From positions 3,755,278 through 3,819,277 of the forward strand of contig NZ_LT629791.1 of assembly GCF_900105925.1 (NCBI RefSeq): a stretch of DNA of 64,000 bases. Reading direction: 5' to 3'. This DNA is from Jiangella alkaliphila (GTDB lineage: Bacteria > Actinomycetota > Actinomycetes > Jiangellales > Jiangellaceae). The position numbers were made by a program, and so were the translations under genes. Below, piece after piece: positions 49,309 to 64,000 of the stretch. Under the pieces are notes generated by a model. That model did not search any database and was not told the DNA's origin. It saw nothing but the letters and a program-made list of their open reading frames with translations. Each line of letters opens with the position of its first letter. Position 1 is the stretch's first letter.

Positions 49309-50079
49309 GCTCAGCGCGGCGCGCTGGGCGCGGTGGTCGCGGACCAGCCAGCCCTGCGTCAGCCGCGGGTCGTCGTCGCCGCGGCCGGCGGCGAGTTCGT
49401 CGAGGTAGCGGCGGTCGGCGGCGAGGCGGCGGCGCAGCTCCGCGCCGTCGCCCACGTGGCCGTGACCTGGCACGACGTACCGCACGTCGCCGGCGAGGGA
49501 GTCGAGCAGGTCCAGCGCGTGGTGGTAGTCGCCGAGCGGGTCGGCGGCGTCGAGGTCCAGCAGCGGCACCTCCACGTCCGAGCACAGGTCCCCGGCGACC
49601 AGCACGCCGGCGCCTCCGACGACCAGTGCGGCGTGCCCGCGCGCGTGCGCCCGATGCTCGACGACGTCCACCCGCGGGCCGCGCCACGGGACGACAACGC
49701 CATCCCGGGGCAAGGCAGCGAGCCGGGCGAACCGGTCGCCGTCCGTTTCCGGTGCCTCGACGAGGGCCTCGGCCAGGTCGCGGTCGCGCCCTGCCGCCGA
49801 AGCGGCCACGCAGGCCGCCGTCGCGAAGCGGGGCACGTCGTCGCCGAGGGAGCGGCTCCACAGGACGTGGTCCCAGTGCGGGTGCGTCGCGAACCCGGCC
49901 ACGGCGTGCAGCCGGCGGGAAGCCAAAGCGGCGGCGAGGTCGGACAGCTCGGCCGGCGTGACGCCCGGATCGACCACCAAGCAGCCGCCCTCGGCGCCGA
50001 TCACCACGGTGGTCGTACTGATGCAGAACGCGTGGGTGGCGACCAGGACGTCCCCGGTCACCTCGGCGAGGCCGGCCAT
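49294..50079 (-). CDS. MBL-fold metallo-hydrolase
   Basis: 261 residues. The zinc signature is THPHWDHVLW (HxHxDH), followed by a histidine in HARGHAALVVGG, the bridging aspartate in VAGDLCSDVEVPLLD and the last histidine in VVPGHGHVGD. This is the beta-lactamase-like hydrolase fold (glyoxalase II, lactonases and so on); substrate unknown. ATG at 50077-50079; the longer frame to 50268 runs into the divergent binding-protein gene. Its C-terminus (after RDHRAQRAALS) is encoded by the right arm of the CACCTGATC repeat, so the original end may have been altered. Confidence 0.82.
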   Translation of the reverse strand: MAGLAEVTGDVLVATHAFCISTTTVVIGAEGGCLVVDPGVTPAELSDLAAALASRRLHAVAGFATHPHWDHVLWSRSLGDDVPRFATAACVAASAAGRDRDLAEALVEAPETDGDRFARLAALPRDGVVVPWRGPRVDVVEHRAHARGHAALVVGGAGVLVAGDLCSDVEVPLLDLDAADPLGDYHHALDLLDSLAGDVRYVVPGHGHVGDGAELRRRLAADRRYLDELAAGRGDDDPRLTQGWLVRDHRAQRAALSKTIR

Positions 50080-50110
50080 CCCACGACGGTACCCGGTGCG
50101 CGGCAGTCGG

Positions 50111-50129
50111 TCAGGTAAGCCTATCCTTT
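50111..50129 (+). promoter_or_regulatory. IdeR/DmdR-type iron box
   Basis: TCAGGTAAGCCTATCCTTT matches the 19-bp consensus TTAGGTTAGSCTAACCTAA at 15 positions. It ends five bases before the ATG of the siderophore-binding lipoprotein, which would be repressed when iron is plentiful. Confidence 0.72.
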
Positions 50130-50134
50130 GGCTC

Positions 50135-51184
50135 ATGTCGTTCACCGCCGCGGGCCGCCGGCTCGCCCTTGCTCTGACGGTTCCGCTCCTGCTCCTCGCC
50201 GCGTGCGGGGGTGACGACGGCGACGACGGCAGCACCGCGACCGGCGAGCCGGACGCCACCAGCGACACGGCGACCGGGGAGTTCCCCGCCTCCGTCGAGC
50301 ACCGCTACGGCAGCACCGAGCTGTCCGAGGCGCCGGAGCGGGTCATCACGCTGGGCTTCAGCGACCAGGATGCCGTGCTGGCCTTCGGCGTCGCGCCGAT
50401 CGCCGTCACCGACTGGTACGGCGACTACGACCACGCCACCTGGCCGTGGGCCGAGGACGAGCTGGGCGACGCCGAGCCCCTCGTCATGAACGAGGGCGCG
50501 TTCACCGGCATGCAGGCGTTCGACTACGAGACCATCGCCGACCTGGAGCCCGACCTCATCATCGGCCTGTACACCGGCATGACGCAGGAGGAGTACGACA
50601 CGCTGTCGGTCATCGCGCCGACGGTCGCGTCGTCGCCGGACTACCCCGAGTACGGCATGCCGTGGCAGGAGACCGCCCGCATGGTCGGGCAGATCCTCGG
50701 CCAGGCCGACCGTGCCGAGGAGCTGATCGCCGACGTCGACGCGCAGTTCGCCGAGGCGGCCGCGGCGAACCCGGAGTTCGAGGGCGTCGAGATGGTCGTC
50801 GCGGAGCTGTTCGAGCCCGGCTCGTCGTTCGTCCGCAGCGCCACCGACCCGCGCACCGTCTTCATGACGCAGCTCGGCTTCGTGCTCCCCGCCGACCTCG
50901 CCGAGCTGGCCGGTGACCTCGACGGCGCGCCCGTCAGCGACGAGCTGATGACCCAGCTCGACCGCGAGCTGCTGGTCTGGAACATCGGCCACGAGCCCGA
51001 CCTGCGCGCGCAGATCGAGGAGAAGCCGCTCTACGACCAGCTCCAGGTCGTGCAGGACGGCCGGGTGCTCTACATCGAGGACCCGCTGGTGGCGGGCGCT
51101 CTGACGTGGTCGACGGTGCTCAGCCTGCCCTACGCGCTGGAGCACCTGGTGCCGCAGCTGGCCGAGACGATGGGCGCGGCCTAA
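50135..51184 (+). CDS. Iron-siderophore ABC transporter binding lipoprotein
   Basis: 349 residues with signal peptide and lipobox LLAAC (cysteine about residue 23), then an acidic linker. The FepB/FhuD-type (class III) fold opens with APERVITLGFSDQDAVLAFGVAPIAV, then TIADLEPDLIIGLYTGMTQEEYDTLSVIAPTVA and a long connecting helix. It captures ferric siderophores outside the cell. The iron box overlaps its leader. No permease or ATPase gene is adjacent, so it must use components encoded elsewhere. Its TAA stop lies in the CTAAG duplicated by the following insertion sequence, which left the gene intact. Confidence 0.88.
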   Translation: MSFTAAGRRLALALTVPLLLLAACGGDDGDDGSTATGEPDATSDTATGEFPASVEHRYGSTELSEAPERVITLGFSDQDAVLAFGVAPIAVTDWYGDYDHATWPWAEDELGDAEPLVMNEGAFTGMQAFDYETIADLEPDLIIGLYTGMTQEEYDTLSVIAPTVASSPDYPEYGMPWQETARMVGQILGQADRAEELIADVDAQFAEAAAANPEFEGVEMVVAELFEPGSSFVRSATDPRTVFMTQLGFVLPADLAELAGDLDGAPVSDELMTQLDRELLVWNIGHEPDLRAQIEEKPLYDQLQVVQDGRVLYIEDPLVAGALTWSTVLSLPYALEHLVPQLAETMGAA

Positions 51185-51332
51185 GCCTCGATCCGTGGAA
51201 GGGCTATCGGGTGATCTTCGCTCCTGACTGTTGATCTTGATCGGGGTCGTGGGCAGGGCTGGTCGGCTGGTCTGCCCAGCTCTTCCACGTGTCGGTGTCC
51301 GGTCGGGGCCCGGTGCGGGCGGTGGTCGACGG

Positions 51333-52739
51333 TCAGGCCGCCGCGGCGGGTGGCCCGGTGGCGAGCACGTGGTTCCAGAGGCGGGTCCACTGCTGGGCCC
51401 AGGGCCAGTGCGTGGGCAGGTGCAACACGCGGCGGCGTTGCGGGCGGGCCAGCCGGGCGGGCACGGTGACGATCTGTCGGCGCAGTGTCGCGCCGCGCGC
51501 GACGGCATGCCGCGGACTGGTCAGGGTGCCGGCGGCGCGGAGCAGGTTGTGGGTCATCGCGGCGCAGGTCGCCCAGGCGGCGTTCGCGGCGAACCGGCCA
51601 GACGGCAGGTGGGCCAGCGGCCCGTCGATGAGGTCGGCGAACACGGTCTCGATGATCGCGTGCGCGCGGTGGGTGATGTCCGCGTCGGCGGTCGGTTCGG
51701 TGTTGTCGGTGAAGAACGGGTGGTGCCGCCAGACCGGGAACAGTTCATCGGTCTTGGCGCGGTCGCGGACCCGGCGCACGATCAGCCGGGCGGTGACCTG
51801 GTGCTTCTTGGCCTTGGAGCCGAACGCGGTGAACGGTACTTCGGCGACGTGGGCGTCGGAGATCAACTGCCCGGTGTCCGGGTCGACGACCGCGCCGGGG
51901 TAGTGCACCGGTGTCCACGCGTCGGCGGGGATGGTCGCGATCGCCCTGCTCACCGCACGGTTCTTGGTCAGCGCCACGGAGAACCGGGCCCCCGCCCTCA
52001 CGCAGGCGCCGACGACGACGCTGTTGCCGTAGGCCGAATCACCGCGGACCAGGATCTCACCCGCCGCGCCGGCGGCGCGGGCGGTCCGGATCGCCTCGGC
52101 GACCATCGTCGCCGCGCCCTTCCCGGAACCGGCCCGCCCGGCCCGTAGCCGGATCCCGGCCACCACCGGCGCACCGTGCTCGGTACTGATGCTGGTGGCC
52201 AGCGGCGACAGGCCCTTGCGGAGCACCTGCCGCCCGGCGATCTTGGTGTGCCCGAAGCTGGCGCCCTGCTTGGCGTGCCCGTAGACCGGGCGCAGCAGCG
52301 AATCGATGTCGACGAACGCCCGAGTCCCGATCCCGGGCAACAGCCCCGTCGTCGTGACGAGGCCGACCAGATGCGCCCGCGCGACCGAGGCCAACTGCAG
52401 GGCATGGCCATGGGTGAACTCCCGCAGGAACTGCCCCAGCGTGGCCGGCGCATACACGCCGCCGAACAACCGGCCCATCCCGCCGGAACGGACCACGTCC
52501 AGATCGTCGATGCAGTCCGCGCCGGCAGCCATCCCCGCCACGATCGAGGTGATCTTGCCCGCCGGGTTCACGCCGGCCGACTTCACCCTCACCGAGCCGA
52601 CCGCGACCTTGGACGAGATCAGCTCGGACAGGCCAGCCTGCTCGGCCAAGGCCATCACCGGCACCAGCCCCGCGCACGACACGAGATTCTCGTCATCGAA
52701 CCTCGGCATCGCCTTCGACCAGACGTGAGATAGTCGCAC
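51333..52739 (-). CDS. IS1380-family transposase, copy 1
   Basis: 468-residue DDE transposase. Candidate catalytic acids are D144 or D146 in AFVDIDSLLRP, D234 in VRGDSAYGNS, and E364 in HRAHAIIETVFADL, spaced as in IS1380. The N-terminal 110 residues look DNA-binding; the C-terminus is basic (RARPQRRR-like). Translation should start at GTG 52739 after GGAAGG, but that ribosome site lies in the arm of a hairpin (52744-52752 with 52801-52809 being the paired arms), which would damp expression from outside promoters. Complete and apparently functional. Confidence 0.92.
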   Translation of the reverse strand: MRLSHVWSKAMPRFDDENLVSCAGLVPVMALAEQAGLSELISSKVAVGSVRVKSAGVNPAGKITSIVAGMAAGADCIDDLDVVRSGGMGRLFGGVYAPATLGQFLREFTHGHALQLASVARAHLVGLVTTTGLLPGIGTRAFVDIDSLLRPVYGHAKQGASFGHTKIAGRQVLRKGLSPLATSISTEHGAPVVAGIRLRAGRAGSGKGAATMVAEAIRTARAAGAAGEILVRGDSAYGNSVVVGACVRAGARFSVALTKNRAVSRAIATIPADAWTPVHYPGAVVDPDTGQLISDAHVAEVPFTAFGSKAKKHQVTARLIVRRVRDRAKTDELFPVWRHHPFFTDNTEPTADADITHRAHAIIETVFADLIDGPLAHLPSGRFAANAAWATCAAMTHNLLRAAGTLTSPRHAVARGATLRRQIVTVPARLARPQRRRVLHLPTHWPWAQQWTRLWNHVLATGPPAAAA

Positions 52740-52743
52740 CGAG

Positions 52744-52809
52744 AGTGCCTTCCGCAGCAGTGGCGATCAGGACCTAGACAATCCAGATCCTCCCTGCACA
52801 GAAGGCACT
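52744..52809 (-). promoter_or_regulatory. Hairpin masking the transposase ribosome-binding site (copy 1)
   Basis: AGTGCCTTC (52744-52752) and GAAGGCACT (52801-52809) are perfect 9-bp inverted repeats, extended by CGCAG/CTGC. On the transposase strand the proximal arm contains GGAAGG, eight bases before the GTG start. Transcripts reading in from outside would fold it shut, as known for IS10 and IS50. The same structure recurs at 62692-62757 in copy 2. Confidence 0.6.
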
Positions 52810-52858
52810 TTCTTCGTCACCACACCGAACGACCAGCCAGCCAGTCCACGGATCGAGG

Positions 52859-53245
52859 CTAAGCCGTCGGGGCCGGGGTGGCCCCGATGTCGTGGACATG
52901 GTGCGGGTCGTCCTCGCGCGGGTGCTCGCCGTGGGCGTGGTCGGCGTGGAACAGCGCCTGCTCGAGCAGCTGGCGCACGTGGGTGTCGGCCGCGTGGTAG
53001 AACACGAACGTGCCGTCGCGGCGGCTGAGCACCAGCCCCGACAGCCGCAGCTTGGCCAGGTGCTGGCTGACGGCGCTCGGGCTCGCGTCGACCAGCTCCG
53101 CCAGATGGTTCACCGACGACTCGCCCTGCAAGAGCGCCCACATCAGCTTCAGCCGGGTGGGGTCGGAGAGCATGCGCAGCGCGCCGGCCGCCCGCTCGAC
53201 CTGGTCGGCGCCGGGCATGTGGAAGCCGTCGATGGTCTCGTGCAC
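52859..53245 (-). CDS. ArsR/SmtB-family metal sensor (alpha-5 zinc site)
   Basis: 128 residues. The winged helix shows LSDPTRLKLMWALLQGESSVNHLAELVDASPSAVSQHLAKLRLSGLV in family order. The last helix holds D87, H89, H100 and H103 in exactly the DxH(x10)Hxx H spacing of the alpha-5 site of CzrA/SmtB, which binds zinc or cobalt; cysteine sites of arsenic or cadmium sensors are absent. A His-rich tail follows. GTG start chosen; ATG nine codons on is possible. Divergent from a CDF exporter with an inverted repeat between. Its TAG stop lies in the CTAAG target of the adjacent IS. Confidence 0.88.
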   Translation of the reverse strand: MHETIDGFHMPGADQVERAAGALRMLSDPTRLKLMWALLQGESSVNHLAELVDASPSAVSQHLAKLRLSGLVLSRRDGTFVFYHAADTHVRQLLEQALFHADHAHGEHPREDDPHHVHDIGATPAPTA

Positions 53246-62494: not shown

Positions 62495-62546
62495 TCGTCA
62501 GTGCGCCGGGGTTGCCTTAGTTGGCCGTCCCCCTGCTGCCCATGGT

Positions 62547-62642
62547 CTTAGCCGCGAGGGTGCGCCTCAAGTCCGCGCCCGCTGTGGTGAATGTTCGTGG
62601 GTGGTGGGGGCTTGGACTTGACCCGCACCCTCGCGGTCTAAG
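62547..62642. repeat. Hairpin-forming repeat with ~28-bp arms, flanking IS copy 2
   Basis: Arms 62547-62574 and 62614-62642 pair with two mismatches and one extra base (core CCGCGAGGGTGCG). Ends read CTTAG/CTAAG. The last five bases are the CTAAG directly preceding the insertion sequence, so the IS landed at the edge of this palindrome. It may be a terminator of the small gene or a MITE. Confidence 0.6.
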
Positions 62643-64000
62643 CCTCGATCCGTGGACTGGCTGGCTGGTCGTTCGGTGTGGTGACGAAGAAAGTGCCTTC
62701 TGTGCAGGGAGGATCTGGATTGTCTAGGTCCTGATCGCCACTGCTGCGGAAGGCACTCTCGGTGCGACTATCTCACGTCTGGTCGAAGGCGATGCCGAGG
62801 TTCGATGACGAGAATCTCGTGTCGTGCGCGGGGCTGGTGCCGGTGATGGCCTTGGCCGAGCAGGCTGGCCTGTCCGAGCTGATCTCGTCCAAGGTCGCGG
62901 TCGGCTCGGTGAGGGTGAAGTCGGCCGGCGTGAACCCGGCGGGCAAGATCACCTCGATCGTGGCGGGGATGGCTGCCGGCGCGGACTGCATCGACGATCT
63001 GGACGTGGTCCGTTCCGGCGGGATGGGCCGGTTGTTCGGCGGCGTGTATGCGCCGGCCACGCTGGGGCAGTTCCTGCGGGAGTTCACCCATGGCCATGCC
63101 CTGCAGTTGGCCTCGGTCGCGCGGGCGCATCTGGTCGGCCTCGTCACGACGACGGGGCTGTTGCCCGGGATCGGGACTCGGGCGTTCGTCGACATCGATT
63201 CGCTGCTGCGCCCGGTCTACGGGCACGCCAAGCAGGGCGCCAGCTTCGGGCACACCAAGATCGCCGGGCGGCAGGTGCTCCGCAAGGGCCTGTCGCCGCT
63301 GGCCACCAGCATCAGTACCGAGCACGGTGCGCCGGTGGTGGCCGGGATCCGGCTACGGGCCGGGCGGGCCGGTTCCGGGAAGGGCGCGGCGACGATGGTC
63401 GCCGAGGCGATCCGGACCGCCCGCGCCGCCGGCGCGGCGGGTGAGATCCTGGTCCGCGGTGATTCGGCCTACGGCAACAGCGTCGTCGTCGGCGCCTGCG
63501 TGAGGGCGGGGGCCCGGTTCTCCGTGGCGCTGACCAAGAACCGTGCGGTGAGCAGGGCGATCGCGACCATCCCCGCCGACGCGTGGACACCGGTGCACTA
63601 CCCCGGCGCGGTCGTCGACCCGGACACCGGGCAGTTGATCTCCGACGCCCACGTCGCCGAAGTACCGTTCACCGCGTTCGGCTCCAAGGCCAAGAAGCAC
63701 CAGGTCACCGCCCGGCTGATCGTGCGCCGGGTCCGCGACCGCGCCAAGACCGATGAACTGTTCCCGGTCTGGCGGCACCACCCGTTCTTCACCGACAACA
63801 CCGAACCGACCGCCGACGCGGACATCACCCACCGCGCGCACGCGATCATCGAGACCGTGTTCGCCGACCTCATCGACGGGCCGCTGGCCCACCTGCCGTC
63901 TGGCCGGTTCGCCGCGAACGCCGCCTGGGCGACCTGCGCCGCGATGACCCACAACCTGCTCCGCGCCGCCGGCACCCTGACCAGTCCGCGGCATGCCGTC
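62643..64000 (+). mobile_element. IS1380-family insertion sequence, copy 2 (cut by window end)
   Basis: First 1,358 bp of the same 1,673-bp element as at 51186-52858, in opposite orientation. It starts with terminal repeat CCTCGATCCGTGGA (62643-62656), preceded by CTAAG at 62638-62642 as at copy 1. Sequence is identical to copy 1 in the long coding segments compared. The missing end lies beyond the window. Confidence 0.9.
62762..64000 (+). CDS. IS1380-family transposase, copy 2 (3' end outside window)
   Basis: 413 codons of the 468-codon transposase, from the same GTG start (MRLSHVWSKAMPRFDDENLV) and open to the last base; by comparison with copy 1 it should stop about 168 bases further on. 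D144/D146, D234 and E364 are all within the visible part. The ribosome site GGAAGG sits in the arm of the 62692-62757 hairpin. No disabling change seen. Confidence 0.92.
   Translation, partial: MRLSHVWSKAMPRFDDENLVSCAGLVPVMALAEQAGLSELISSKVAVGSVRVKSAGVNPAGKITSIVAGMAAGADCIDDLDVVRSGGMGRLFGGVYAPATLGQFLREFTHGHALQLASVARAHLVGLVTTTGLLPGIGTRAFVDIDSLLRPVYGHAKQGASFGHTKIAGRQVLRKGLSPLATSISTEHGAPVVAGIRLRAGRAGSGKGAATMVAEAIRTARAAGAAGEILVRGDSAYGNSVVVGACVRAGARFSVALTKNRAVSRAIATIPADAWTPVHYPGAVVDPDTGQLISDAHVAEVPFTAFGSKAKKHQVTARLIVRRVRDRAKTDELFPVWRHHPFFTDNTEPTADADITHRAHAIIETVFADLIDGPLAHLPSGRFAANAAWATCAAMTHNLLRAAGTLTSPRHAV

Follow-up and report, generated by a model that had tools for sequence, protein, structure and literature searches.

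An IS1380-family insertion sequence of Jiangella alkaliphila that very probably targets and duplicates the pentamer CTWAG

Described relatives

Insertion sequences (IS) of the IS1380 family contain a single open reading frame (ORF) within about 1.6-1.9 kb, are bounded by short terminal inverted repeats starting CC, and duplicate 4-5 bp of their target. IS1247, for example, is 1672 bp long, with 16/13 inverted repeats and a 5-bp direct repeat (PMC3281130). The element analysed here resembles the family members IS1247, ISPme1, and ISEcp1 in transposase profile and 5-bp duplication, and at about 1.67 kb it is as long as IS1247; its distinguishing trait is a strict target, CTWAG (W being A or T).

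Parallels for such a target are found in other families. Extragenic palindromes are targeted by elements of the IS3, IS110, IS4, IS256, and IS5 families, IS1380 not being among them (PMC1525189). The REP-targeting elements IS1397, ISKpn1, IS621, ISPpu9/10, and ISRm22 likewise insert recurrently into intergenic palindromic repeats, whereas here the pentamer seems to be enough and relatives elsewhere need no repeat. Some IS5-family elements have short palindromic targets of the TNA or CTAG type. The piggyBac and IS1380 transposases are distantly related, with IS1380 as the outgroup (PMC10140906); piggyBac also has a fixed short palindromic target, but this is the 4-bp TTAA in eukaryotes rather than a 5-bp CTWAG. 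The kind of system is already known; its target is sharply defined here. Literature searches found no paper combining IS1380 with CTAAG, nor one combining CTTAG, insertion sequence, and target site; ISfinder may record the target.

The window copy and its empty site

The window, that is, the whole 64,000-nucleotide stretch of DNA that was analysed, comes from a closed genome of 7.7 Mb. Copy 1 of the element lies within it between two convergent genes:

49958-51184, + strand: iron-siderophore periplasmic binding protein gene (Peripla_BP_2); codon usage places its start near 50135
51181-51185: left target duplication CTAAG, which includes the TAA that ends the siderophore-binding-protein gene
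51186-52858, - strand: IS1380-family IS copy 1, 1673 bp; the genome has 10 further complete copies identical to it
51186-51199, + strand: left terminal inverted repeat CCTCGATCCGTGGA
51333-52739, - strand: transposase ORF, 468 aa as the longest ORF; the start may be 52709
52845-52858, - strand: right terminal inverted repeat CCTCGATCCGTGGA
52859-52863: right target duplication CTAAG, on whose complement the ArsR gene ends with TAG
52859-53245, - strand: ArsR/SmtB-family regulator gene, stop TAG at 52861-52859

The transposase matches the IS1380 profile NF033539 over residues 13-445 with 314 bits (cut-off 180), and Pfam DDE_Tnp_1_4 with 92.5 bits. The family hallmarks are present: a single ORF, a length of 1673 bp, and 14-bp perfect ends. 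As a result of the insertion, the transposase gene is directly downstream of the ArsR gene and codirectional with it (the two together span 51333-53245); it could be transcribed from the ArsR promoter.

The stop codon of the binding-protein gene is the TAA at 51182-51184. When the flanks are joined and one CTAAG is removed, the reconstructed empty site reads ...GCGGCCTAAGCCGTC..., and a single pentamer holds both stops; there is a 4-nt overlap between the coding ends, and the two stop triplets have TA in common. A preliminary description of this DNA had proposed just such an overlap of the TAA with the opposite-strand ArsR TAG, and had added that the 5-bp duplication restores both stops, leaving the siderophore-binding and ArsR proteins unchanged. 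The reconstruction agrees on each point. A search of the binding-protein gene end against plasmids returned distant homologues only.

Relatives within the genus preserve a comparable arrangement. No near-identical copy of the element was found in 11 other genomes of the genus, and both genes were readable in four of these IS-free relatives. In three (L100, L101, and L103) the stops are TAG and TAG, overlapping in CTAG, as the proposed empty site anticipated; in the fourth (L104) they are 159 nt apart. Such 4-nt overlaps are ordinary among convergent genes: of the 217 convergent pairs counted in 1.6 Mb sampled from the window genome, 15 have one, and three of these 15 are on CTWAG.

A pentameric target

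The window also contains the beginning of a second copy:

62638-62642: target duplication CTAAG of copy 2, the right shoulder of a hairpin repeat
62643-64000, + strand: IS copy 2, extending past the window end; the same pentamer stands at its far end in the genome

All 11 complete identical copies in the genome have identical CTWAG on both sides. Read in one IS orientation, six copies have CTAAG and five have CTTAG; these are reverse complements of each other, and the target is one symmetric word for which insertion orientation is irrelevant. With no more than 74 CTWAG in the 1.6 Mb sampled, this recurrence is beyond chance. When two diverged IS1380 groups (85% and about 69% identical) are added to the identical copies, a perfect 5-bp CTWAG duplication is present at 22 of 23 delimited sites in the window genome. 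The exception, B1, has the flanks GTTAG and CTTAG.

Elements of this kind also form tandem arrays, as would follow if each insertion left two usable CTWAG targets. Two identical copies lie head to tail with one common CTAAG (genome 6350849-6354199); an element of group B stands beside one of group A with a single CTWAG between them (4102240-4107007); and group C elements flank an IS5 element on both sides, with a single CTWAG between neighbours (5868876-5873176).

A scan of species genomes identified relatives of the element in Actinopolymorpha, Tamaricihabitans, Mycolicibacterium, Mycobacterium, Micromonospora, Streptomyces, Ruania, and others. Identical CTWAG duplications occur at 23 of 36 related sites in these other actinobacteria. 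Complete foreign copies provide 28 identical duplications: 12 CTTAG, 11 CTAAG, two CTGAG, and one each of TTTAG, CTTAA, and CTCAG. Some foreign copies have unequal flanks. In a logo of 30 sites, which were preselected for CTNAG so that it informs on the flanks and the centre only, no information appears outside the pentamer, and 26 sites have A or T at the centre; an extended consensus was sought and rejected, none being found. The centres favour W even though, in the window genome, CTSAG outnumbers CTWAG 20 to 1 (1489 against 74 in the 1.6-Mb sample). With CTWAG shared by relatives in other genera, the target belongs to this IS1380 branch and is not peculiar to one genome.

From the CTAAG preceding copy 2, the preliminary description had suggested that the element selects this pentamer. 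The same pentamer also follows copy 2, outside the window, and the suggestion holds at the 22 sites, but the true word is broader: CTWAG, with occasional CTSAG, TTTAG, or CTTAA in relatives. The expectation that other copies would share these flanks stood in the main, and failed for the few degenerate targets.

About 30 related copies, in several subgroups, populate the genome of Actinopolymorpha pittospori (NZ_JADBEM010000001.1). Nearly all are at CTNAG, and they are mostly intergenic and dispersed. The Actinopolymorpha insertion sites have no similarity to each other, and no repeat is targeted there.

The hairpin repeat as a landing site

Copy 2 interrupts a repeated hairpin:

62520-62642, + strand: hairpin repeat, left part, interrupted by copy 2; CTTAG shoulder 62547-62551, CTAAG shoulder 62638-62642

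The repeat is about 190 nt long, and 10 of the 12 genomes from the genus carry it. Its order is outer arm, CTTAG, stem, loop, stem, CTAAG, outer arm, and in the consensus fold CTTAG and CTAAG form a paired stem shoulder. Of 34 base pairs, 9 have changed on both strands of the stem with pairing preserved (13 sequences, which may represent fewer independent events). An Rfam search with the repeat gave sub-threshold matches only, nothing near the gathering score. Most of the repeats form inverted pairs several hundred bases apart, and the sequence between the members of a pair, a few hundred bp long, is variable and itself partly palindromic. Uninterrupted repeats have a single CTWAG per shoulder; across the genome the pentamer is retained at about 67 shoulders on the left and 43 on the right.

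The repeat takes 15 of the 23 IS1380 sites; for groups A and B alone the count is 7 of 12. By comparison, 12 of the 74 sampled CTWAG are in the repeat (Fisher p = 1.6e-5). The 1.6-Mb sample underestimates this share, giving an extrapolated 58 repeat CTWAG genome-wide against about 110; with the estimated 110 of 409 (about 27%), binomial p = 1.4e-4, and the excess persists when the repeat is given 35% of CTWAG sites (p = 0.003).

An element of a different transposase family behaves similarly. All six insertions of the IS5-family element IS-D (NF033580) are at CTWAG of the hairpin repeat, one of them at genome 5870541-5871511. A 69% relative of IS-D is also flanked by CTWAG, with two of three copies in the repeat. 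IS-D probably duplicates 3 bp within the pentamer instead of 5; the ends of IS-D, GAGGGCGTCTG, together with a duplicated TNA would presumably fit the IS1031-group pattern. Pooling IS1380 and IS5 gives a binomial value of 4e-7 for the hairpin excess.

Within the limits of these counts, the excess over the CTWAG share of the repeat is real, and as a pattern of standing copies it would fit attraction or tolerance alike. Tolerance is the reading to which we give fair credence: insertion would occur at any CTWAG and persist where harmless. The pentamer is enough in other genomes, and the hairpin repeat is intergenic and multicopy. Survival of this kind would, however, be expected to spare insertions in the roughly 70% of CTWAG that are intergenic outside the repeat, and it leaves the excess at a 35% share to be accommodated.

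Attraction would mean that the hairpin itself is recognised, by shape or by sequence beyond the pentamer, and so serves both IS1380 and IS5 elements as an active landing pad. The use of both shoulders, and the concentration of IS1380 and all IS-D sites in a repeat with about 27% of CTWAG, speak for it; the dispersed, unique, repeat-free sites of the Actinopolymorpha relatives and the logo's silence beyond CTNAG speak against it, and neutrality of the repeat could produce the same excess. Hairpin recognition is possible but doubtful. More tentative still, and in our judgement unlikely, is the idea that the paired CTTAG/CTAAG shoulders aid landing through their structure and that two unrelated transposase families, IS1380 and IS5, exploit them independently, the repeat being a shared safe harbour that draws transposons away from genes.

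Stop codons and gene ends

Every CTWAG includes TAA and TAG on opposite strands, and copy 1 sits exactly on two stops. The preliminary description had supposed that placement at gene ends would be the general outcome. The null distribution of the pentamer was taken from 80 stretches of 20 kb, hand-chosen at round coordinates and shifted when near known IS copies; genes were called with a home-made codon-usage gene finder, whose starts are uncertain and whose ends are less so. Among the 74 CTWAG in this 1.6-Mb sample, 61 are intergenic (82%), 7 are on stops (9.5%), and 6 are inside CDS (8%), whereas 87% of random positions are inside CDS and 0.2% on stops. A single ribosomal RNA region holds 11 of the 74, and 3 lie on two stops at once. 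The scarcity of CTWAG in genes would most simply reflect the rare codons or stop that it presents in every frame of a GC-rich genome.

An element that recognised stop codons or convergent 3' ends, using the pentamer as a two-strand stop, could account for copy 1 and for the 3 of 36 foreign sites on stops. That reading is very improbable: with the single own site among 23, the total is 4 of 59, against 7 of 74 for CTWAG at large (no enrichment, p = 0.66), most sites are intergenic and off stops, and one own site and several foreign sites are inside CDS. The supposition of a general placement at gene ends is not supported. Given the pentamer rule, chance can also account for copy 1 itself, because 3 of 74 CTWAG are on doubly shared stops; about 0.9 such insertions are expected in 23, and one is observed. 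On these counts, gene-end placement is a by-product of the pentamer rule, with no search for gene ends.

Proposed mechanism

Read directly from the genomes, the target, its duplication, the empty site, the distributions, and the arrays are the footing for a model in which the transposase itself would read the pentamer. This transposase, assigned to the DDE class by domain profile, would cut the near-palindromic CTWAG with a 5-bp stagger and thereby duplicate it. The near absence of CTWAG from coding frames, presumably a matter of codon usage, would send the element to intergenic DNA and sometimes to stops, copy 1 being such a case. Most insertions in this genome fall in the genus-wide hairpin repeat with its CTTAG and CTAAG stem shoulders, probably at little cost to the host. 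All of the evidence consists of standing insertions, and selection against other sites could have sharpened the apparent specificity.

The notion that CTWAG is part of the element, in longer terminal repeats and with no target duplication, draws on its presence on both sides of all 11 identical copies, but is rejected as barely credible: the centre is A in some and T in others of copies that are identical throughout the element itself, the two flanks of any one copy always agree, and uninterrupted hairpins have one CTWAG per shoulder. It is highly probable that the IS1380 element targets and duplicates CTWAG, and that its intergenic and occasional stop landings follow from the distribution of that word.

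Implications

An insertion sequence can spare its host without reading genes if its target is a short word of which coding DNA already has few copies. CTWAG provides a testable target for the actinobacterial branch of a family that mobilises resistance genes elsewhere, and the hairpin repeat of this genus is a landing site for two IS families.
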